In this document: positions 49 to 35,500 of the stretch, in pieces
Layout: each line of letters opens with the position of its first letter
How positions within the stretch are numbered: the stretch's first letter is position 1
Assembly (NCBI GenBank): GCA_018052945.1
Contig: JAGPMH010000014.1
Span: 1,491-37,480 of the forward strand
Length of the DNA: 35,990 bases
Direction of reading: 5' to 3'
DNA from: Negativicutes bacterium
GTDB lineage: Bacteria; Bacillota; Negativicutes; JAGPMH01
The notes under the pieces: model-generated
Seen by the model: only the letters and a program-made list of their open reading frames with translations
Told to the model about the DNA's origin: nothing
The model's database searches: none
Position numbers and translations under genes: made by a program

Positions 49-1290
49 TTAGCAATTTTTCATTGCTTTTAATGTTTTTTCGGCCATTCCTTTAATTTTA
101 CGGGATGGTACTGCACAAACAGCAATTCTAACACCAGCCGCTAATGGAACTGCATAGATTAAATCATCATGTAATTTATTGCAAACAGCATCTGAATCAG
201 ATGATGGTATGGAGATAAAGAATCCTGCACGATATGGTAACATATTTAAACCACATTCTTTAGCTTCAGCCATAAAGATATTCGCCCGTTCTTTAATTAA
301 TTCATAAAAACCATCACGCTCTTTTTCAAACTGTGATAGCAATTGTTTATCATTATAGATCGTCGCAAGCAATTGCATTGCTCCCCTATTGATATTTGAC
401 CAAGTTGCTCTGCTAGTGTATTGATTAATATCGGCAAACTCTTTGCTGATTTCTTTACTGGAAGATATCCCAATCATTGCACCGGTACGTTGACCATACA
501 TCGTATAACCTTTAGACATGCTGAATGCCAAGATTCCTAAAATATTAGCAGGCAAGTTGCTGAACTGTTTTAAGAAACGACGAGTTTCATTTTTTTCTCC
601 GGCATAATCAATATAGGCAATATCAACTAAAATTGTAATTTTTTTCGTACTATCTTTTGCTTCAGTTTTACAAACATCGAGTACTTTTGTCCAATCATCA
701 TCAGTTAAACTAAATCCTGTTGGATTATGAGCCGGCGTATTAATGATGATAACCAGTGAATCTTGTTTTTTCAATAAGTCATTAACTTTTAACTCAAAGG
801 CCTTAATATTGAAATTTTGTTGTTCGTCAAATAATTGGTAAGTATCAAGTTTACGTAACGCTTCTTTACATAAGACAGTATACGGACCCCAATACCAATC
901 TGAGGTAAGAATTGTATCACCAATTTCAGAATAATTCCAAATAGTATGATGTATTACTCCGCTACCACCTGCCGTTGCTACAGCATTGATATAAGCATCA
1001 GGCTTATTATCTTGGAAAGTTAAGTTGATTGTAGCATCAAGATAACTAGGTAGTCCCGCTATCGGTGCATAATTTATTAAATCATTAATTGGCATTTCTC
1101 TTAAAACTTTTTCAACAGTGGGGATGCAGGCTAATTCTTCATTATCATCCATTATCGCTCCAATTGTTGCGTTCACTACTTTATCTTTACCAAATTCTGC
1201 AGTTGCTTTTACTGCAGCACCACTGGCACCAAAAATCTTGTCAGTTGCAAATTTTCCTTTAGAATGAGAGGCAGCAATACTTGTTAACAT
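49..1290 (-). CDS. Class I/II PLP-dependent aminotransferase
   Basis: A 413-residue fold-type I aminotransferase, probably acting on aspartate or aromatic amino acids. The sequence shows the substrate/PLP loop HNPTG (about 188-192), a D-x-x-Y PLP-ring contact (D223, Y226) and the Schiff-base lysine in SMSKGYTMYGQRTG (K260), with a following Arg (R268) expected to bind the PLP phosphate. The start is the ATG at 1290, behind a strong AAAGGAGG. It lies downstream of the lysC terminator and so is probably transcribed separately, although the adjacent aspartate-family genes suggest a link to that pathway. Substrate specificity cannot be read from the sequence; aspartate, aromatic or alanine transamination are all possible. 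The first 48 bases of the window, downstream of it, show nothing clear. Confidence 0.85.
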   Translation of the reverse strand: MLTSIAASHSKGKFATDKIFGASGAAVKATAEFGKDKVVNATIGAIMDDNEELACIPTVEKVLREMPINDLINYAPIAGLPSYLDATINLTFQDNKPDAYINAVATAGGSGVIHHTIWNYSEIGDTILTSDWYWGPYTVLCKEALRKLDTYQLFDEQQNFNIKAFELKVNDLLKKQDSLVIIINTPAHNPTGFSLTDDDWTKVLDVCKTEAKDSTKKITILVDIAYIDYAGEKNETRRFLKQFSNLPANILGILAFSMSKGYTMYGQRTGAMIGISSSKEISKEFADINQYTSRATWSNINRGAMQLLATIYNDKQLLSQFEKERDGFYELIKERANIFMAEAKECGLNMLPYRAGFFISIPSSDSDAVCNKLHDDLIYAVPLAAGVRIAVCAVPSRKIKGMAEKTLKAMKNC

Positions 1291-17400: not shown

Positions 17401-18591
17401 TTATAATCCAGCTTCAGCTTTTAAAACATCAGCTTTATCAGTACGTTCCCATGGTAAATCTAAATCAGTTCTACCAAAATGACCATAAGCTGCTGTTTGC
17501 TTGTAAATTGGTCTACGTAAATCTAAAGATTTAATGATACCAGCTGGTCTTAAGTCAAAATGTTTTGCAATTAAAGTAGAAATTACCGCTTCAGCAACTT
17601 TAGCAGTGCCGAAAGTCTCAACCATAATTGAAACTGGTTTTGCTACACCAATTGCGTATGCTAATTGAATTTCACATTTTTCTGCAAGTCCTGCCGCAAC
17701 TACATTCTTAGCAACATAACGCGCCGCATAAGCTGCAGATCTATCAACCTTTGTAGGATCTTTACCGGAGAATGCTCCGCCACCATGACGCGCCATTCCG
17801 CCATAAGTATCAACAATAATTTTTCTACCAGTTAAACCAGCATCACCTTGTGGTCCCCCTACTACGAAGCGACCAGTTGGATTAATATAATATTTAGTAT
17901 TTTCATCTAAAAATTCTGTCGGAATAATCGGCTTAATTACATGTTCCATCAAATCTTTTTCAATAGTTTTTAAATCAACTTCCGGACCATGTTGAGTTGA
18001 AATAACAATGGCATCAATTCTTACCGGTTTGCCATCAACATACTCCACTGTTACTTGAGTTTTTCCATCAGGACGTAAATATGATAATGTATCATTTTTG
18101 CGAACTTCTGACAAACGACGTGATAATTTATGTGCTAAAGAAATAGTAAGTGGCATATATTCTGGAGTTTCATTGGTCGCATAACCAAACATCATGCCTT
18201 GGTCGCCAGCACCAATAGCATCGATTGAATCTTCCATTTCGCCGTCTTTTGCTTCTTTTGCTTTATCAACACCCATAGCGATATCAGCTGATTGCTCGCC
18301 AATTGATGTCATTACACCACAAGTATCGCCATCAAAGCCGAATTTAGCTCTGGTATAACCGATCTCACGGATTGTTTCTCTTACTATTTTCGGTATATCA
18401 ACATAGCAATTAGTTGTTATTTCCCCGACTACATGTACTAACCCAGTTGTAACTAGGGTTTCACAAGCAACACGACCCATTGGATCTTTTGCTAAAATAG
18501 CATCTAATACGCTATCTGAAATTTGATCAGAAATCTTATCAGGATGGCCTTCTGTTACGGACTCTGATGTAAATAAAACACTTTTACTCAC
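17401..18591 (-). CDS. metK: S-adenosylmethionine synthetase
   Basis: Makes SAM from methionine and ATP. Signatures: [13 protein letters not shown] near the N-terminus (His and Asp at the ATP site), [12 protein letters not shown], and the glycine loop [21 protein letters not shown] (20 of these residues fit the P-loop-like signature). The start is a GTG at 18591, with AAGGAGG six bases before it, giving 396 residues, the usual length. A frame beginning at 18630 falls inside the riboswitch terminator and is not used. Expression is controlled by the SAM-I riboswitch directly upstream, so SAM represses its own synthesis. Confidence 0.97.
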
Positions 18592-18610
18592 AATATTCCT
18601 CCTTAAATTT

Positions 18611-18639
18611 ATAAATAAAAAAACTCTCATAAAGAGAGT
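18611..18639 (-). terminator. SAM riboswitch expression-platform terminator
   Basis: Minus strand: ACTCTC, loop TTTAT, GAGAGT (18623-18639), followed by a run of seven T's and more T-rich sequence. The stem lies between the aptamer and the metK ribosome site, and bases in GAGAGTAGC just before it can join an alternative antiterminator. Confidence 0.85.
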
Positions 18640-18654
18640 AATTTTTTAGCTACT

Positions 18655-18741
18655 CTCATCTTATTAGGAATTGGCACCGTTTTGAAAATTCAATGGTTGC
18701 CGCAGCTTCATTGGGCCAGTCCCTCCACTACTCTTGATGAG
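18655..18741 (-). promoter_or_regulatory. SAM-I (S-box) riboswitch aptamer
   Basis: On the minus strand the conserved S-box order is complete: P1 5' strand CTCATC, then AAGAGTAGTGGAGGGACTGG, then CCCAATGAAGCTGCGGCAACC, whose central AAGC and GGCAACC are diagnostic, then GGTGCCAATTCCTA, and the P1 3' strand GATGAG (18655-18660). When SAM is bound, P1 is held and the terminator at 18611-18639 forms, lowering metK. The promoter should lie in 18742-18790, but I cannot define it with confidence. Confidence 0.95.
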
Positions 18742-18787
18742 TTATTTAATTTTTCTATTGCAATTTTAAATGAAAATCATCAAAAAA

Positions 18788-25674: not shown

Positions 25675-25694
25675 TAATCGCTCCTTTAGAAAAT

Positions 25695-25728
25695 AAAAAA
25701 CCCCTGTTCAATTGCATTTGAACAGGGG
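25695..25728 (-). terminator. T-box leader terminator
   Basis: An 11-bp stem, CCCCTGTTCAA (25701-25711 on the plus strand) with 25718-25728, a 6-base loop and a minus-strand run of six T's followed by TATTTT. Its 5' strand overlaps the CCCT needed by the antiterminator, so the two structures exclude one another. Confidence 0.93.
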
Positions 25729-25980
25729 CGTAAATTTTTACGCGGTACCACCCTAATTTATCACTATAATATCAATCTATCAATTGACTCCTAGCTAACG
25801 CCTAGAATACGCCTCTGCCTAATCGGAATTCTTTCGGAGAAGAGTTCATGGGTGATTTAATCAGCATTTAATCTGCACCGGTTTTCAGCAAGCACCGGCT
25901 CTCTGTGGCAAATATCCAATACCTTTGTTCCCAATCATAACCTTTGTTGTTTTTTAAAAGTGTAAAGTTGTAAACCTCTG
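25724..25980 (-). promoter_or_regulatory. T-box riboswitch, probably tRNA-Leu responsive
   Basis: On the minus strand the diagnostic T-box AGGGTGGTACCGCG lies at 25741-25754. An antiterminator is drawn by AGGG pairing with CCCT (25724-25727) and GCGTAAA with TTTACGC (25728-25734), leaving the 7-base bulge TGGTACC. Stem I has the conserved distal ACAGAGAGCCGG and TGCTGAAAACCGG elements. An upper helix pairs ATTGGATATTT with AAATCACCCAT, leaving GAACTC in the specifier loop, so the specifier is most likely CUC (25842-25844, Leu). The UGGU bases pair with a discriminator A, as in tRNA-Leu; the shifted UCU (Ser) would need a G discriminator and UGGC. Uncharged tRNA would favour readthrough into the oxidoreductase gene. 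Confidence 0.93.
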
Positions 25981-25986
25981 ATGTAG

Positions 25987-26015
25987 ATTATCCCATCATT
26001 TTTCTATTGTGTCAA
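25987..26015 (-). promoter_or_regulatory. Promoter of the T-box/oxidoreductase unit
   Basis: Minus strand: perfect -35 TTGACA (26010-26015), 17-base spacer, -10 GATAAT (25987-25992). Start near 25980, giving a leader of about 305 bases, all occupied by the T-box and terminator. With the accessory-operon terminator at 26077-26123, this accounts for the 461-base gap between the two genes. Confidence 0.85.
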
Positions 26016-26135: not shown

Positions 26136-26789
26136 TTATTTTAACAATGGACATTTACACCTAAAACAATAGTCCGCTTCGATATCATTTAAAGAGCTAC
26201 AAGCATTGCAAAAAATAATACTATCATTTGATTTATCATATTTTTCATAAGTCTTTAACTTTCCATGGTGCCTTACCTTATCGCCAATATTAAAATAGTT
26301 AAAAACAGTATCATCATCCTCAGCTCTCAACGAAATAGTATTATTATCAGCTTTTATTAAAACATAATAAACTAAGTATTCCTCAATATAATAATCATTA
26401 TTGGAAGTATGTCTTCTTCTACTATGTTCTTCTATTTTTTTATCGATTACCACACCATCAAAAGTCTTTGTTTTATTAATAGAAATTACTTGAATTAGTG
26501 CAATTACTATAAACATAGCACTAATTATCAACCCAATAAACAAAGCCTCTGGGTTTTCCATCTCATTACTGGTCTCACCATAGATATAAAAACTAATAGT
26601 AACAATTAGCGACAAAATTACCGCAAAAAGTAATGACCAAGTTTTAGTATCTTTAATATATTTTTTAAAAGCTGGATCATTTATTTTTGTTGAATATCCT
26701 ACAAGTTTGTTTTTTTTTATTTCTTTTCCACATTCAACGCAAAAGTTTTTATTTTTTGGTGAATCAGCACCACAATGCGAACAGACCAT
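26136..26789 (-). CDS. Membrane protein with N- and C-terminal zinc ribbons
   Basis: A 217-residue protein I do not recognise. It has a double zinc-ribbon layout: C3, C6, C17, C20 at the N-terminus and C194, C197, C208, C211 at the C-terminus. Between them are two membrane helices (about 52-71 and 83-103) and a ~90-residue beta-rich stretch (about 105-190). With two helices, both ribbons should lie on the same, probably cytoplasmic, side. ATG behind AAGGTGG. It is the last gene of the accessory operon, 26 bases after the DUF2207 gene. A role in binding metal, RNA or a partner protein is open. Confidence 0.8.
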   Translation of the reverse strand: MVCSHCGADSPKNKNFCVECGKEIKKNKLVGYSTKINDPAFKKYIKDTKTWSLLFAVILSLIVTISFYIYGETSNEMENPEALFIGLIISAMFIVIALIQVISINKTKTFDGVVIDKKIEEHSRRRHTSNNDYYIEEYLVYYVLIKADNNTISLRAEDDDTVFNYFNIGDKVRHHGKLKTYEKYDKSNDSIIFCNACSSLNDIEADYCFRCKCPLLK

Positions 26790-26815
26790 ATTATAACCAC
26801 CTTATTATCATGTTA

Positions 26816-28678
26816 CTATCTACCACCATAGCTACTACCACCACTTCCGCTACCACCGCCAGAAGAAAACCCTCCGCCATCACCTGTTTCGGAAGATTTA
26901 TTATCTTTTGTGGCTATAGCAATTGAAGTTTCAATTGAACTAATCATATTTTCCATACTCTGATTAAAATTATTGAAGCTATTGGCATTATAATTATAAT
27001 AATACCAACCATAACCAAATGTAATGTCACCGTCTTTCATATCAGGAAACATGAGAGATAATTGCTTAATAACTTTATCTGCTACTCCTAATGTAACAGC
27101 ATAAACTAAATAATGTTCCCAAATAATCAAACTCGGAATTTCGTGTTTTTCCATTTCTGAAAAGTCAGTTAAAAATTTTTTAAAAGCACGCCATTTTACA
27201 AAATCTTCTCTACCTTCAGTAGTATGGCGCTTAAACAATCTCGGTACTAAACCAAGGATAGCTCCGGAAATTATTAATCCGCTACCAAGAAACCGCTGCT
27301 CTTGAATTACAATGCAACCCAAAATAAATATAATTAAGCCACTAATTAACGTTACTACAGGCATATTAGATGGAGGTTCAAAAAATTTATATTGTTCAGT
27401 TTCAATTCTTACAGCTTCTTGCCAATATAACCAAAATTTATAAAATGATTTTTTGTGATTTTTAGAAAAACTTTCGATTTCATCAATATAAAAAGTTTGT
27501 TCAACTGAAGCAAGATGTTGTCTAAAATAATCTAATAAAAATTGTTCGTGTTGTTTTAAATTGTTTGCCGTTGGGTTTAATATACTAACTTTATACCTTG
27601 TAATAATTTTATTCTTCCAAATAATATTTTTTTCTTCGCTTTTTTCTTCGTCAATTTTCAAAAATTTTCGCCGTGCTAAATCAAGAATAGTTGCTGTAAT
27701 ATCCTGCGCTTTAATTTTATCAAAATTCCATAAAACACTTAATTCAGCTGGAGTATATTCAGCCGGTAACTCTCTACAATATTCACCATTAAAAACTGTT
27801 TTATGGTTTTTACCGTACTTTATCCATAAATATGCCGTAAGTATTATTGTCGCAAATACTAATAAAATACTTAATATTATTTCTAACTTAACCATCATTC
27901 TTTTATTATTAGCTTCACTAGCCCATTTTGATTCTTCTTTGAGAATTTCTTCTAAAGCATTCTTATTAGTATAAACCATGGAAGGTACATTATTGAATAA
28001 TGCTGTTGGCATAATTATTCTAGCTTCTAAGAATTGATTAGCATTAAAATCTTCACTACTTAAAACTACTTGGTTATCATCAAGAAATTTTATTTCACCA
28101 TTTAATGGGCCATGTCCCCATATTTTAATGTCCTTACCTTTAATGTATGATTGCGAAGCATTAGGCAAAGTTATTTTTATGCTAACATCGTCAATATTAT
28201 GTTTATTAGTAGCACTGATAAACTTTCGATAAAATTCAGCTATATCATTATGAATTTTTACAGCATTTGTCACTTTATAACTTACAACAAAATTTCTTTG
28301 CTGATTCTCAGCATTGATACTCCAATCAACGATTATTTTATCATTATCTTTTTTTGTTAAATATGTTCCCGGAGGACCATATTTTGAGCCTTGATTGAAT
28401 TTATAAGGCTGATTATTTTCACTGACAATTATATCGCTGATTACGTTATTATTACTCTGTGCAATATTAATATAAAAACCGTTCCATTTACCGTTAAAAT
28501 ATACAGTAATTTTTTCTGTAACGTTCATCGAAGCATCATTTAAAATTTGCGCCTCAATTTTAATATCTTTTATTTCTATTGATCTTTCTGCTTTAGCAGT
28601 ATTAAAAAATGATACTATAATAAGAAAAAAAATAAAAGCAATTAAACTACGATATACTTTATTAATAAATAATTTCAT
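26816..28678 (-). CDS. DUF2207 family predicted membrane protein
   Basis: A 620-residue protein with the DUF2207 architecture. A signal peptide (about 1-30, ending AKA) is followed by an extracytoplasmic beta-sandwich (about 31-240) with the family's GKWNGFYINI region. Then come a membrane helix (about 263-288), a cytoplasmic winged-helix-like region (about 300-430), and a closely spaced helix pair (about 445-485). The tail is very rich in Gly and Ser (GDGGGFSSGGGSGSGGSSYG), as is common in this family. Family function is unknown, but its genes often accompany lemA, as here (10-base gap). Confidence 0.85.
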   Translation of the reverse strand: MKLFINKVYRSLIAFIFFLIIVSFFNTAKAERSIEIKDIKIEAQILNDASMNVTEKITVYFNGKWNGFYINIAQSNNNVISDIIVSENNQPYKFNQGSKYGPPGTYLTKKDNDKIIVDWSINAENQQRNFVVSYKVTNAVKIHNDIAEFYRKFISATNKHNIDDVSIKITLPNASQSYIKGKDIKIWGHGPLNGEIKFLDDNQVVLSSEDFNANQFLEARIIMPTALFNNVPSMVYTNKNALEEILKEESKWASEANNKRMMVKLEIILSILLVFATIILTAYLWIKYGKNHKTVFNGEYCRELPAEYTPAELSVLWNFDKIKAQDITATILDLARRKFLKIDEEKSEEKNIIWKNKIITRYKVSILNPTANNLKQHEQFLLDYFRQHLASVEQTFYIDEIESFSKNHKKSFYKFWLYWQEAVRIETEQYKFFEPPSNMPVVTLISGLIIFILGCIVIQEQRFLGSGLIISGAILGLVPRLFKRHTTEGREDFVKWRAFKKFLTDFSEMEKHEIPSLIIWEHYLVYAVTLGVADKVIKQLSLMFPDMKDGDITFGYGWYYYNYNANSFNNFNQSMENMISSIETSIAIATKDNKSSETGDGGGFSSGGGSGSGGSSYGGR

Positions 28679-28688
28679 TTTATTATCC

Positions 28689-29246
28689 TCAAAAATTAAT
28701 TTTTAAACTATCTCTTTCACTACTACTTGGTCCTAACGAATAATATGAAACCATTTCAAAGCCTAAAAATCCGGCTATTAAATTAAAAGGGAACAACTCA
28801 ATTTTAGTATTAAATTTTTGAACAGTATCATTATAAAACTGTCTTGCAAAGGAGATCTTATCTTCAGTATCAGTAAGTTGTGACTGTAATTCTAAAAAAT
28901 TAGTATTAGCCTTTAGCTCAGGATAAGCCTCTGCTACCGCAAATAGTGATTTTAAGGCACCACTTAAAATATTTTCCGCCGCTAATTGCTCATTAATATT
29001 TTGCGCACTAATAGCACCAGTTCTCGCAGCTGTCACTTTTTCAAAAGTTTCTTGCTCATGCTTGGCATAACCTTTAACTATCTCTACTAAATTAGGAATT
29101 AAATCATGTCTCCGTTTTAATTGAATATCAATTTGCGACCAAGAGTTTTGTACTCGTTGTCTTAATATTACCAAACTATTATATGTTACCATTAAAAAAA
29201 CACCAATTAATAAAAGTAGCACAATCACTATTATTATACTTGTCAT
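28689..29246 (-). CDS. lemA: LemA family protein
   Basis: A 185-residue LemA protein. One N-terminal membrane helix (about 3-22) is followed by the family signature YNSLVILRQRVQNSWSQIDI and LKRRHDLIPNLVEIVKGYAKHE, then a helical bundle ending YNDTVQKFNTKIELFPFNLI. LemA proteins are small membrane-anchored helical bundles of unknown biochemical role, known as the source of a Listeria antigen presented to T cells. It directly precedes the DUF2207 gene in the same transcript. Confidence 0.93.
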   Translation of the reverse strand: MTSIIIVIVLLLLIGVFLMVTYNSLVILRQRVQNSWSQIDIQLKRRHDLIPNLVEIVKGYAKHEQETFEKVTAARTGAISAQNINEQLAAENILSGALKSLFAVAEAYPELKANTNFLELQSQLTDTEDKISFARQFYNDTVQKFNTKIELFPFNLIAGFLGFEMVSYYSLGPSSSERDSLKINF

Positions 29247-29260
29247 AAAATATCCCCCTT

Positions 29261-30532
29261 TTATGGTAGTGGTAAAAATTTTTCAATAACTTTCTCATTA
29301 TTAAGCAGTATAATCCCCTGTTCCTTTAACCTTTTAATAATTTCTTGATATTGAGGCAATAAAACATTTCCTAATGCATCAGTAAACCAAATATATTGGA
29401 TGGTATCATCATTAAAATATATTGCCAGCCCTTGATATGTTGCACTCTTAGCTAACATATATGAACCAGCGGAACCAGGAGAAGTAGCCCTTCCTGATAA
29501 CAATGATAATAACAATACCCAAAAGAATAAACGTTTAAACCATTTGGGATTTTCCATGGTAACTTGTTCAAATTTAACAATATCAGAAAATTGATACTTT
29601 TTAAAATTGCCAGCAGTTGCAATTAAAATTTCTTTTTCAGTAAAACTAAGCTGAAAGGAAGCATACACTGCCGAAGAATAAATAATTATTAATCCTCCAA
29701 TAGCCATACTCCAAAAAACTATCGGTAATATTATCCATTCGCTATTCAGTGCTGGAATACTGCCAATAATAAACAAAGGCAAGGCAAAAAAGAATATCAA
29801 TAACATTAAGCCTAAAATATCGCTAATAATAATTTTGGATTGAGGATATTCAATAATATTGTTGTTTTGCTTAACGCTAGGTCTTAAAAAACCTAGTAAT
29901 AATCCAATAATAATAATTGCTAAACCGATCTTACGATGAGGATACCAAATATTACTAGGTGGTTCTGAAAAAATACTAGTCATAGGACCTGCATTAGTAA
30001 AATAATCATTATATTCTACTTTTAAATATTGTTTTTTGTTATTAAAATACCCTTCAATATAGGCAAAATCTTTATCTGTTTTAGTTAAATTAAATTTTTC
30101 TAATGGAATTTCTTTTGTCGTAAAAAAAACAGGCATTGAATAATAATTATTAGTATATAAACTTAGCCGTTCCAAATCTTCACTACTTACTTTGTCTTGA
30201 AATTTACTTTGTTTAATTTTGCCATCATAAATTAACTTAATATTTTCAAAATAATCAACAAACTCATTAGCAGGTAAAGTTGAAATTTTCCCGTTAGTTT
30301 TTTCCAAAATATATTGTTCTAAAGGTAACTTTGATAATCTTTTCTTATCTTCTGAAATAAAGCCATAACTTTTCTTTATTTCATTTTTTTGTTGTAAAGA
30401 AAAATCAACATAACTCATACTTATTAATTCGGTGTTTTTTTGAAAACACAATAAAATACCACCGATAATTGCCAGTGCCATAATTATTTTTTGCCAATAT
30501 CTAATTTTCCGTAAATAAATATTATTATCCAC
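29261..30532 (-). CDS. Multi-pass membrane protein, unknown
   Basis: A 423-residue protein I do not recognise. One helix near the N-terminus (about 15-32) is followed by a ~165-residue region likely to lie outside. Then come helices at about 200-217, 233-258 and 267-292, a short stretch (FTEKEILIATAGNFKKYQFSDIVKFEQV) that resembles the strands of a bacterial PH-like domain, and another hydrophobic segment near 333-347. The start is a GTG at 30532 behind GAGG. It is 14 bases from both neighbours. A membrane partner of LemA/DUF2207 is a contextual inference. Confidence 0.75.
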   Translation of the reverse strand: MDNNIYLRKIRYWQKIIMALAIIGGILLCFQKNTELISMSYVDFSLQQKNEIKKSYGFISEDKKRLSKLPLEQYILEKTNGKISTLPANEFVDYFENIKLIYDGKIKQSKFQDKVSSEDLERLSLYTNNYYSMPVFFTTKEIPLEKFNLTKTDKDFAYIEGYFNNKKQYLKVEYNDYFTNAGPMTSIFSEPPSNIWYPHRKIGLAIIIIGLLLGFLRPSVKQNNNIIEYPQSKIIISDILGLMLLIFFFALPLFIIGSIPALNSEWIILPIVFWSMAIGGLIIIYSSAVYASFQLSFTEKEILIATAGNFKKYQFSDIVKFEQVTMENPKWFKRLFFWVLLLSLLSGRATSPGSAGSYMLAKSATYQGLAIYFNDDTIQYIWFTDALGNVLLPQYQEIIKRLKEQGIILLNNEKVIEKFLPLP

Positions 30533-30546
30533 CCTATTACCTCACC

Positions 30547-31452
30547 TTATTGTTGCTTACTTATTATTTCTTCAATGTTAATATAATTAGGCGACCATCG
30601 CTTAACTTCCTCTATCGCAGCATTTTTCTCAATTTCTGTATATTTTATTAATTTAAAATACTCTGCTCCGGAGTTAGCATGTTTTACCAAAACTCTTCCT
30701 AAATTAGGCGCATAATAAGTTAAAGTTTTGAGTCCAAAAACATCATTGTATTCTTCTATTACCAGACAATTTTCTATTATCTTGAAATCAAGGTTAAGAT
30801 TTTCATTCAATGCCACAACTTTCCAAGTTGTAGTGCCAAAATCATCTGTAACAGTCCAAGTTTGCCCAATAGTTGGATTGTTCTTAATAATCGGCGTTGG
30901 TTTGTGCGTTATATTTTGATCATAAATCAAATAGACTCCATCTTTTAATTCTAGATAATAAAATCCATAACCATATTCTGCACCTGCTTCAAAATTACTT
31001 TCACTTTCACTAACAATAATTTTGGAGTTTGTGAGAAGGTTCGCACTAATCCTAGTCACTGGACCTGATTGTCCATCAGGATAATTCAAAAAAAATTCAC
31101 ACTTTAAACCAGGTTTCGGCAAATATGTTTTTGCTAATGCTAAATTAACACTATCTTCGTTACTAGCAATAACATTTTGAGTGACTGCTTCTTTATAATT
31201 ATGGTTTGTTACAGGGTTAGACTGTTTCTTAGATATTGTCCAATAAATGCTTCCTGTTATTAAAGTTAACAACGCAATAATAAAAAATATTACTATGAAA
31301 ATATTTTTTGTGATTTTCTCCTTCTGACTAACTTCATTATTTGCTATATTAAAATTTTGCATAGTAACATCAGTTATTTTATTGCCACAAGCACCGCAAA
31401 AAACATCATCATCACTGACAGTACTATTACAATTCGGACATTTTTTTAGCAC
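30547..31452 (-). CDS. Zinc-ribbon, single-pass membrane protein with outer domain
   Basis: A 301-residue protein of unknown function. The N-terminal zinc ribbon has C5, C8, C19, C22 (CPNCNSTVSDDDVFCGAC). A linker is followed by one membrane helix (about 51-73). The remaining ~225 residues are beta-rich and should be extracytoplasmic, with a TIGQTWTVTDDFGTTTWKVV stretch like the repeated beta units of many secreted Firmicute proteins. I choose the GTG at 31452, because AAGGTG lies five bases before it and the ribbon then begins at once. An ATG at 31494 would overlap the upstream gene and add a poorly matching lead. Confidence 0.75.
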   Translation of the reverse strand: MLKKCPNCNSTVSDDDVFCGACGNKITDVTMQNFNIANNEVSQKEKITKNIFIVIFFIIALLTLITGSIYWTISKKQSNPVTNHNYKEAVTQNVIASNEDSVNLALAKTYLPKPGLKCEFFLNYPDGQSGPVTRISANLLTNSKIIVSESESNFEAGAEYGYGFYYLELKDGVYLIYDQNITHKPTPIIKNNPTIGQTWTVTDDFGTTTWKVVALNENLNLDFKIIENCLVIEEYNDVFGLKTLTYYAPNLGRVLVKHANSGAEYFKLIKYTEIEKNAAIEEVKRWSPNYINIEEIISKQQ

Positions 31453-31475
31453 ATTATCACCTTCATTAAGCTTAA

Positions 31476-32546
31476 TTATAACAATGCTCCGCATTTAGTA
31501 CAAAATTTCTTTGCTATCAAAATCTTCTCACCACATTCGCCACAAAATTTAATTTGTTCACTATCAATATTGATCTCAGTTCCTTGCCAATAATTATTGA
31601 TTAGATTTTCCATATTAATAATTACTTCATTTTTAGTATTAGTTTGATAATTTAAAACATAGTTATCATTATTTTCTGTTATTAATATTAAATGATTAGT
31701 AAAAGCGGTTGCAGTCAAAAAAGCTTGTGCTAATATTACTGGTTCTTCTTTTATTGTCGTTATAATTTCAATTCCTATAGCGCCAAGCCAGTTTGTTAAG
31801 AATTCAACTCCGATAGCCTGCCCTAAATTACTTAAAGTTATAGTATTATTTTGTATCGTAGTAAAAAACCCGAGATTTTTTAAAGATTCAAGATGCTTCG
31901 GCTGCAATGAAATTTGTTGTTTCTTTAAGGTTTGATTAAGTTCAAATAACGTAGGTAATAACCATCTGGTATCAGCACTAGCTAAAGAAGATTTAATTAA
32001 ATCTAAAAAGTCATTAATGTAGATACTGTTATTAATTTGAGGATTATACTCTAACATACTCTCAAGGCTAGCTCTTTTATAAAAATCCAGTCCCGCAAAA
32101 AAGCAAATAACTGTCTCTAACTCCTGATTTCCTGAAATAATATTATTGTAACCTTCTTGTCCTATACTACAATATAAGTCCGACCACCAACTCATGAAAT
32201 TATTGAAATTTTTAAATAATATATTGATAAACTGATTTTCACTATTTTTAAATTGAGCAATAATTTTACTATGTTTCTTAGAAAAAAACACTTGATAATA
32301 ATCTTTTTCTGATATCGAACCACCACTTTTAAAATTAACAACTAAATCAGGTTCTAATATTATCTCTGAGAATTCCTGCAAACTATCACTTTTTAATAAC
32401 TCTTGAAAAAATTTTGAAGGATTTTCATTGGTGCTCTGTTCTATATCAGTTTTAAAAGGGGAAAGATTATTTCCCCTAAGCCCTGAAATTTTAAAAAGAT
32501 GATTAAAATCATCAAAGTTTAGCTTGAAAACTAAATTATTGTCCAT
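31476..32546 (-). CDS. Protein with C-terminal zinc ribbon, unknown
   Basis: A 356-residue protein I do not recognise. There is no signal peptide or clear membrane helix. The first ~200 residues look mixed alpha/beta, followed by a possible winged-helix-like region (LESLKNLGFFTTIQNNTITL, about 215-235). A Ser/Asn-rich linker leads to a zinc ribbon at the extreme C-terminus, C335, C338, C349, C352 (CGECGEKILIAKKFCTKCG). ATG behind AGGAAGG, 16 bases after the large repeat protein. It could be a cytoplasmic adaptor for that protein; this is inference from order alone. Confidence 0.75.
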   Translation of the reverse strand: MDNNLVFKLNFDDFNHLFKISGLRGNNLSPFKTDIEQSTNENPSKFFQELLKSDSLQEFSEIILEPDLVVNFKSGGSISEKDYYQVFFSKKHSKIIAQFKNSENQFINILFKNFNNFMSWWSDLYCSIGQEGYNNIISGNQELETVICFFAGLDFYKRASLESMLEYNPQINNSIYINDFLDLIKSSLASADTRWLLPTLFELNQTLKKQQISLQPKHLESLKNLGFFTTIQNNTITLSNLGQAIGVEFLTNWLGAIGIEIITTIKEEPVILAQAFLTATAFTNHLILITENNDNYVLNYQTNTKNEVIINMENLINNYWQGTEINIDSEQIKFCGECGEKILIAKKFCTKCGALL

Positions 32547-32562
32547 TTTCTAACCTTCCTTA

Positions 32563-35500
32563 TTACTTTTTAGCAATTTTTAAAGAACTTAAGCGACTTG
32601 TCAATTTGTTGACAAAATCACCGGGGGTATCATAACCTATACTTTTTAATAACTCAGCTCTTGTATCAGGAGCTAAACTACGGTCATTTATAATATCCAG
32701 CCCCTTTTCCATATTACTTGGCATATCAGAAATTTTATAGCCCATATTTTTATAACCTTGTTCAATATTTTTTATCTGATTACCAGCTTTTCTTAACTGC
32801 TCTAATGCTTCTGTTTTATTAACAATATCTCCTTTTTCCCAATAATGATTTACTTTGTATTTTTCCATCATTCCAAAAGCTTCTGCATCTAACAATTCAC
32901 GTTGTCCTAACGCTGCTTGTCGAGCCGTTGCACAATCCGGTGCATTTCCTTTCAATATTGCTGTTCTTTGAGTGTTAAAATCCCTAGCAGCTTCTGGATG
33001 ATATACATCAGTGGCATTTTCACCATGAAGCTCCGCCCATTTTTGAACCTTTCCAGCATCATCTAATTTATTCCAATCCACACAAGGGAATTTTTGAGCA
33101 GCTTGTTCTGGGCTATAGCCAGTTCTATCACCATAAGCTTTATAATAAAGCTTTTCCCACTCATCACGTGGAATCTCTACCCATTCTTCAGTTCCATCTG
33201 GGTTTGTAACTTTTCGTAAAGCTACTACATCATTATCAGTATTAACATCCCACGGTGCTTTAGCTTCAGGTGTTCGTACTGTTTCTAACCTAACCTCACC
33301 ATACTTACTTGATAGTTGACCTTCTACCTCCCGATAAGAGGGTTGATGAACTTTAGAATCAATTGCTTCATTAAATTCCATTCTAATCTTTTTCGCACCT
33401 TCGGAACCTAAATCACCTTTTATTCCATCAACTTTATCAACGTCTTTTAAAATTCTCATTGCGGCTGGATCAGCTTTTAAATCTAAAATATCATCAACTG
33501 TTATGTCTTCATGATTTTTGATTTTTTTATCAGATAGCTTCCAAACCTTTTCTTCCGCTTGCATTTTATATTCCTCATATTCAGCCTGCTTTTTAATAAT
33601 TTCTGTCTGCTTTTCCTTTGGAATTTTATCAAAATCTTCAATTTTACTTTCGATTTTTTTCTGTACAGCTATTTCTTGTTGAGTAAGCGTATCCTTGGAC
33701 TTAGACATTTCAGTATCAGGATTGTTTTTACTAGTTAATTCACCTGGTTTGTTTTTTGTATTAATATCGTTTTTGTCTAATTTTATTATTTTTTCTTCAG
33801 TAGTATTAATAACATCAGTTCTTTCCATAGAATCTTTTACCGGACTTACATTAAAATCATCAATTTTATCAGCACCTTGCTTAGGAATATTATCTTTTGA
33901 ATTATTAACAAGATTATTATTAGCAGTTGCGCCTTGTTTTGATAATATATTAGAACCTTCACCCACACCACTGTTTTTTATCAATCCTAGTTTTTTACTT
34001 AGTTCTTGGTCAACTGCATTAATTTTTACAAGCCCATTTTCAATAGCATCGCCAAGTTTTTTCGTTAAAACCGGAAATCTTCTAGCAAACTCATCTGCCC
34101 CTATACTACCTACTCCTTCAAGCACTTTCGATAAACCTTCTTCAGCAATTACCATTCCGATTGCTTTTAATGTAGCCTTAGTTCCAGATTCATTATTATT
34201 AATCCCATCTTTAACTCTACTTAAAGCCTCGGCGACAGTCATAATATACTCTGAAGAACCACCTGTAGCAAGTCCTATTGCTGTTCTACCTATAATCCCG
34301 CCCCACGAAGTATTTCCTTCAGAATCTTGCCCAGTAACAATATTTTTTGCCGTTTCGGTATTAGCTTTTAATGCCGAATCAATATCTTTATACCAAGGAA
34401 CTTCGGTCCAGCGTTCTCCATTGTCAGCAATAGTTTCACCTTTGATTCTACTGTCAATAACTTTATTAATTTTAGCTAATTTTTCTTGATCAATACTCTT
34501 ATTATTTAACATATCATTTTTTAAGTCTTGAATAGCTTTTTCAACATCGCCAGGACCACCTTTTTCACCAATGCCATATTTTTCAGCAGTCTTTTGCATT
34601 TGTTCTATCTTTTTCCATTGGCTCAAGTTTTCATCAATAGCTTTACTATTAGAATCTGTTCTTTTACTCATTTTTTCAATATCTTCTAGTATTCGTTTTT
34701 TATCTTCCGCTAAATCAGTTTGCCATTTTTCAAATTTGTCTGGATCAACAATATTACCATTTTCAGTGTTTACCCATTCACCTGTTTTACTATTATATTC
34801 GATTTCTATACTCCGACCATCGGTAGCACCGGTAAGCACTTTTTTCTCGCCATCTTTAGGGGAATTAGTATTGCTAACATTATCACCAGTATCATTTCCT
34901 ATATCATCATTTTTTACAGCATCAGAATTAATGCTATTTTCCTCTGGAATGCTTTCAGGATGTTTTTCTTTATTAATACCATGATTTTTCAATGTATTCA
35001 TAGGATCTTCTGGACCAATAATATCACTATCTTTTGACGTATTTTCTTTAGTGTTGGAAATAGAGTGTTCTTTTGAATCATTAGGTATTTGACCTGCCGA
35101 TTTTTCCTCAGTTGGTTCATTTGTCCATGGTTTTGCACCATATTTCTCCAAAGTTCTTGGATACGGTTCTCCTAAAGCTGGTTTGGTTGGTTTCCATTCA
35201 CCAATAACAACAGGACCACCATCAAATGGATTTCTAGTATCCACATTAAACGGACTATCACCTTCGGCCGGATTCTCGCTCCAGTGACGACCCATTTTAT
35301 TATAACCATCTTTATTAAAACCAGTCCAATGATACCCGTCTTTACTGTAACCTTGTTTATTATAGCCCCAAGGATCAAAACCACTCCTATTGTAACCTTT
35401 GTAATCAAAACCGTCTAAATCATAGCCATCTCGATCGTAACCATCTTTGTTAAAACCATTTTTATTATAGCCAAACTCATCATATTCATTATTTTCCTTT

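Follow-up and report, generated by a model that had tools for sequence, protein, structure and literature searches.

The T-box leader and its target gene

The window analysed here is a stretch of 35,990 nucleotides from a Negativicutes bacterium (contig JAGPMH010000014.1, positions 1,491 to 37,480). Its minus strand carries a promoter-like site, a T-box leader and a gene for a 2-oxoacid oxidoreductase of the pyruvate:ferredoxin oxidoreductase (PFOR) type (Table 1). The Rfam covariance model RF00230 aligned with the leader over its full length (model positions 1-219, E 1.5e-25), and the score was above the gathering cut-off of 93 bits. The promoter-like site lies upstream on the same strand and ends 39 bases before the T-box. 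The segment CGCCCCU serves both as the 5' arm of the terminator and as the 3' arm of the antiterminator, thus the two structures are mutually exclusive; two-sided changes were seen in the terminator at columns 263/286 and 265/284 of the leader alignment (A1). The leader therefore possesses an antiterminator with a UGGN bulge whose formation excludes that of an intrinsic terminator. The bulge UGGU of T-boxes pairs with the NCCA end of uncharged tRNA, and the U in the window leader would fit a discriminator base A73.

Downstream of the terminator, a Shine-Dalgarno sequence (AAGGAG) is followed by the start codon of the PFOR-type gene, 46 nt behind the T-box. The encoded protein matched the TIGR02176 model (pyruvate:ferredoxin oxidoreductase) over its full length with 1908 bits (cut-off 911). 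The next gene on the same strand is yicC, which starts about 120 bp beyond the PFOR-type gene, and a single-gene transcription unit is plausible. A sequence-only reading of this DNA had proposed a complete T-box with antiterminator, terminator and promoter directly before a PFOR-type gene; the covariance-model search that it had suggested, the hairpin folds, the promoter match and the position of the gene all agree with this proposal. These results confirm the leader as a genuine T-box; its type is ordinary, and its novelty lies in the kind of target.

Table 1. Features of the T-box locus (window coordinates) and a T-box of another clade member (coordinates of its own locus)
Feature	Position	Strand	Evidence
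Sigma-70-type promoter-like site TTGACA-17-GATAAT	25987..26015	-	11/12 matches, TG precedes -10
T-box leader RNA (RF00230)	25721..25947	-	117.2 bits; 10-leader alignment with covarying stems
Specifier codon AUC (Ile)	25854..25856	-	bulge position rule; register of the genome's T-boxes; 10/10 leaders
UGGU of T-box bulge	25747..25750	-	inside AGGGTGGTACCGCG 25754-25741 (sequence)
Antiterminator	25723..25755	-	fold -10.3 kcal/mol; consensus T-box sequence
Intrinsic terminator	25700..25729	-	12-bp hairpin and T run; -20.1 kcal/mol, z -6.3
PFOR-type 2-oxoacid:ferredoxin oxidoreductase paralog, 1172 aa	22156..25674	-	TIGR02176; paralog clade; pocket residues
T-box before ilvN-ilvC-ilvB-PFOR (G013)	L190 11266-11487	-	

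Elsewhere in the window, an ordinary SAM riboswitch (RF00162, 77 bits; 18653-18743, minus strand) precedes metK (17401-18630). The run of genes upstream of the T-box (26136-35295, minus strand) encodes zinc-ribbon proteins, a DUF2207 membrane protein, a LemA protein and large proteins (356, 423 and 910 aa) without a Pfam match.

Specifier codon and distribution of the leader

The register of the specifier was calibrated on the 15 other T-boxes of the genome; the genes that follow these were named by visual inspection of the translated sequences. In these T-boxes the specifier lies one base 5' of the basal stem I strand and reads AUC for ileS, ACC for thrS, UAC for tyrS, UUC for pheS, GUA for valS, CUU for leuS, GGC for glyQ, UGC for cysE, CUC for leuA, and UGG before trpB and the other trp operon. 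The same register gives AUC (Ile), then A and CCC, in the PFOR leader. The position rule of TBDB, which counts from the 3' end of the bulge and takes positions 2-4 as the specifier (PMC7778990), also yields AUC. The codon is invariant in all ten PFOR leaders found, and in their alignment both stems that flank the specifier loop have support, which for the upper stem comes from two-sided changes; the orthologous leaders thus agree in the specifier codon of their stem I loop. Among the 16 T-boxes of the genome, only those of ileS and the PFOR-type gene have an AUC specifier, which suits control of an isoleucine-specific step.

A Leu specifier had been suggested by the sequence-only reading, and the specifier loop does contain a UUA triplet close by on the 5' side of AUC (25860-25858, beginning 4 nt before it). 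It is, however, in the wrong register relative to both the 15 other T-boxes and the TBDB rule. It is changed in G031 (AGUAAAUC) and absent from most ilv leaders (GAGUAAAUC, GAGUAGAUC), and AUC is kept in all of these; moreover, UUA accounts for 1% of the Leu specifiers in TBDB (PMC7778990). With AUC in the specifier position of every orthologous PFOR leader, we regard a Leu-specific T-box as hardly credible.

In most leaders of the group the specifier loop reads AAYAAA / GAUUAAAUCA, unlike the loop-E motif AGUA/GAA. Among the PFOR leaders, AGUA is present in G117, G050 and G036 and altered in the window leader and others; the 3' side of the loop has GAU or UAG where the loop-E motif has GAA. 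The departing segments correspond to window positions 25854-25863 and 25924-25929 (minus strand) and to A1 columns 36-41 and 104-113. The draft assembly yielded no gene for tRNA-Ile(GAU), and tRNA-Ala is likewise missing, probably because rRNA operons were left unassembled.

A BLASTN search of 380 genomes of the class Negativicutes detected the leader directly before a PFOR gene in G016, G036, G050, G026, G117, G312, G009, G044 and G031 (E values 9e-31 to 7e-44), thus the survey of orthologous leaders proposed by the sequence-only reading found the T-box conserved in relatives. The PFOR of G117 (L017, Bacillota MAG CTSoil_075) is the closest to the window enzyme among 80 named loci (74% identity), and its leader matched RF00230 with 88.5 bits (E 6e-20), slightly under the gathering cut-off. 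Homologous leaders with AUC also precede acetolactate synthase (ilvB) genes in another Negativicutes family. A scan of 398 genomes sampled across the phylum gave no further similar leader at E 1e-8 in the 397 other genomes, only about a dozen of which belong to Negativicutes. The T-box is not a general trait of PFOR genes: none of the examined PFORs outside the T-box clade is preceded by a T-box core, and no hidden T-box was found before the sister copy L202 (G029). In the literature searched we found no link between a T-box and the control of nifJ/PFOR; coverage of the older T-box surveys was incomplete and a prior mention is possible.

Two other T-boxes are recorded here as separate observations. 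In L015 (383-579; G000:C30) a T-box precedes ilvN, followed by ilvC, a leuA-type gene and a further gene. Its specifier is ambiguous, UUC in the usual register and CUU one base 5', and tRNA-Leu GAG is present; possibly this is a shifted Leu specifier. In L164 (G012:C1:17594-17689) a related T-box with a CUC (Leu) specifier lies before a gene whose multi-pass membrane product may be a transporter.

The paralog clade, its substrate pocket and its gene neighbourhoods

The T-box-controlled gene is not the sole PFOR gene of the genome: a second PFOR, with the ordinary LAI pocket, was found on contig C38 (L174), and each genome checked has at least one additional PFOR. In a tree of 129 sequences the T-box PFORs fell in one clade of 12 rows with 100% support, which after the addition of 40 loci grew to 30 rows with 99% support; the named neighbours in the tree include Pelosinus, Selenomonas and Phascolarctobacterium (Negativicutes). 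The target of the T-box is thus a separate paralog, not the housekeeping PFOR. Inside the 30-row clade there are two separate sets of T-box copies, which implies that some lineages lost the leader or else that it moved.

Positions with a residue that is fixed within the clade but uncommon outside it were listed before any structure was considered, and this blind list contains I124, V222 and V844 of the window enzyme. In the pyruvate-specific DaPFOR the pocket for the methyl group of pyruvate is lined by Leu121, Ala219 and Ile843 among others (PMC5020499). Alignment to 1b0p, whose numbering is one below that of PMC5020499, places these three alignable pocket residues at I124, V222 and V844, respectively. 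In separating the clade (168 sequences) the Leu121, Ala219 and Ile843 positions rank 4th, 1st and 7th of 1168; a simple random draw that ignores linkage between sites would place all three among the first seven with a probability of about 1e-7. Further clade-fixed changes lie just past the Arg114 equivalent, at window positions 118-120. The equivalents of Thr31, Glu64, Arg114 and Asn996 (T34, E67, R117 and N999) are invariant. Judged by its full-length TIGR02176 match and its catalytic residues the window enzyme is a PFOR, yet it does not have the methyl pocket of the pyruvate-specific enzyme. As the catalytic residues are invariant and the pocket residues replaced, the chemistry appears to be retained and the substrate pocket altered. 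It must be noted that the changes (L to I, A to V, I to V) are small. In StOFOR1, mutations at the Ala219 and Ile843 equivalents alter the range of 2-oxoacids; specificity changed little on mutation of the Leu121 equivalent (PMC5020499), which counts against the pocket argument.

Other PFOR paralog clades of Negativicutes (L194, L200, L209, L216, L217, L219; L188, L220) have different pocket residues, namely A219T with I843V or I843A, and also Phe/Val/Ala at the three positions.

The neighbourhoods of clade members without the homologous leader were inspected, and key neighbour genes were confirmed with NCBIfam. In G013 (L190) a T-box read as GUC (Val) is followed by ilvN-ilvC-ilvB-PFOR, and in G058 (L215), where there is no T-box, the order is ilvD-PFOR-ilvC. 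Other members without a T-box adjoin threonine genes: regulator, RidA, threonine ammonia-lyase, PFOR and transporter in G041 (L198); RidA, threonine ammonia-lyase, ThrP-like permease and PFOR in G012 (L223); threonine ammonia-lyase, permease and PFOR in G023, G005 and G043. In other T-box-less neighbourhoods the permease or RidA adjoins the PFOR gene. The T-box copies have no adjoining threonine genes. Threonine dehydratase and the isoleucine branch share the metabolite 2-oxobutyrate, which is also the sole isoleucine-specific carbon precursor, because ilvBN, ilvC and ilvD serve valine as well. Together with the Ile T-box, the ilv and threonine dehydratase operons associate the clade with 2-oxobutyrate. 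Part of the clade may work in the oxidative direction, as the threonine operons suggest.

The genome contains methylmalonyl-CoA mutase genes, propionyl-CoA is therefore likely to be available. It also has a threonine dehydratase homolog (449.6 bits) and two LeuA-type genes, thus other routes to 2-oxobutyrate are possible and the PFOR-type enzyme may be redundant. An argument from the absence of other routes had to be dropped: threonine dehydratase homologs scored above the cut-off in 23 of the 24 genomes checked. A TIGR00977-type CimA exceeded its cut-off only in G044, G009 and G026.

Proposed function and comparison with known systems

It is likely that an isoleucyl-tRNA-sensing T-box controls here a dedicated, specificity-shifted PFOR paralog, and that this paralog is most likely a 2-oxobutyrate synthase. 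That the leader responds to tRNA-Ile, which substrate the enzyme takes and that it works reductively are our inferences. In cells short of isoleucine, tRNA-Ile(GAU) without its amino acid would pair with the leader at two places, the AUC specifier of stem I and, by the NCCA end, the UGGU of the antiterminator bulge. This would stabilise the antiterminator, block the terminator and allow transcription of the PFOR-type gene, whose product would convert propionyl-CoA, CO2 and 2 reduced ferredoxin to 2-oxobutyrate and CoA.

The sequence-only reading had instead seen a central-carbon enzyme tied to leucine demand through acetyl-CoA and LeuA. This is probably wrong: the target is a second paralog with a changed pocket and with relatives in ilv and threonine dehydratase operons, which argues for isoleucine and 2-oxobutyrate rather than for pyruvate or acetyl-CoA supply. 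A broader version of the idea, an ordinary PFOR induced under amino acid shortage and supplying acetyl-CoA or pyruvate (oxidatively or reductively) for branched-chain synthesis, could draw on TIGR02176 being an equivalog for pyruvate, on the intact catalytic residues, on acetolactate synthase being fed by pyruvate and on the adjoining ilv genes in G013 and G058. We nevertheless consider it unlikely, since the genome has a housekeeping PFOR whose pocket is unaltered, the pocket residues are replaced across the whole clade, the specifier is for Ile only although pyruvate supply would benefit Val and Leu too, and the threonine dehydratase neighbours match 2-oxobutyrate better.

The enzyme might also carboxylate branched acyl-CoAs (2-methylbutyryl-CoA to 3-methyl-2-oxopentanoate, or isobutyryl-CoA to 2-oxoisovalerate), which would leave one transamination to Ile or Val. 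Anaerobes are known to form isoleucine from 2-methylbutyrate, and both the Ile T-box and the ilv operon of G013 under its Val-type T-box would be in keeping with such a role. This is quite improbable, because the pocket changes are conservative, Ala219Val narrows one side and suits an extra methylene over a branch, and the threonine dehydratase operons yield 2-oxobutyrate, not branched oxoacids. That the window enzyme serves threonine fermentation as a catabolic 2-oxobutyrate:ferredoxin oxidoreductase, turning 2-oxobutyrate into propionyl-CoA, and has acquired an Ile T-box is very unlikely: clade members do occur in threonine dehydratase-permease-RidA operons, but the T-box copies lack adjoining threonine genes, homologous leaders precede ilv genes, and the T-box would switch the gene on at isoleucine shortage, when a drain of 2-oxobutyrate would do harm.

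For the whole clade, we lean towards the view that these Negativicutes 'PFORs' form a previously unassigned family of 2-oxobutyrate:ferredoxin oxidoreductases, which by branch act as isoleucine-tRNA-controlled synthase or as threonine-fermentation enzyme. If so, the synthase branches would let propionate-forming anaerobes build isoleucine from propionyl-CoA and CO2, bypassing threonine and citramalate, and the other branches would be the catabolic enzyme of threonine fermentation. Ferredoxin-dependent carboxylation of propionyl-CoA to 2-ketobutyrate for isoleucine synthesis is established in anaerobes (PMC7476758); for the 2-ketobutyrate synthase activity, that paper cites Buchanan 1969, Monticello 1984 and Eikmanns 1983. 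In the literature searched we found no dedicated, regulated gene for this enzyme, and the clade is a candidate gene for the propionyl-CoA-dependent isoleucine synthesis biochemically reported since 1969. Specifier, pocket residues and operon contexts make the re-annotation of a subfamily of Negativicutes 'pyruvate:ferredoxin oxidoreductases', otherwise modelled as central-carbon enzymes, probable. A T-box may thus expose the substrate of a misassigned enzyme, in this case by Ile-specific control of the sole isoleucine-specific step.

It is instructive to set the locus beside known systems. With the Ile-class T-boxes of RF00230 (ileS and ilv operons) the leader shares the architecture, the UGGU bulge, the AUC specifier and the transcription-termination logic, and its closest sequence relatives are the leaders of ilv genes in Negativicutes; it differs in its target, a PFOR-type oxidoreductase, and the specifier loop of most PFOR leaders departs from the usual AGUA/GAA pair. 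Like the PFORs of known structure (TIGR02176; 1b0p and 2c42 of D. africanus, 6cin of M. thermoacetica), the window enzyme is a full-length single chain with conserved catalytic residues, but it belongs to a separate paralog clade with Ile/Val/Val in place of Leu121/Ala219/Ile843. The Sulfolobus StOFOR is a 2-oxoacid:ferredoxin oxidoreductase whose range, including 2-oxobutyrate, is set partly by the same pocket positions; it differs in being a two-subunit archaeal enzyme with a wider pocket that has Lys, Asp and Thr there (PMC5020499). The reductive carboxylation of propionyl-CoA by 2-ketobutyrate synthase, known as an activity, is the same reaction, and serves the same purpose, as the one proposed here.
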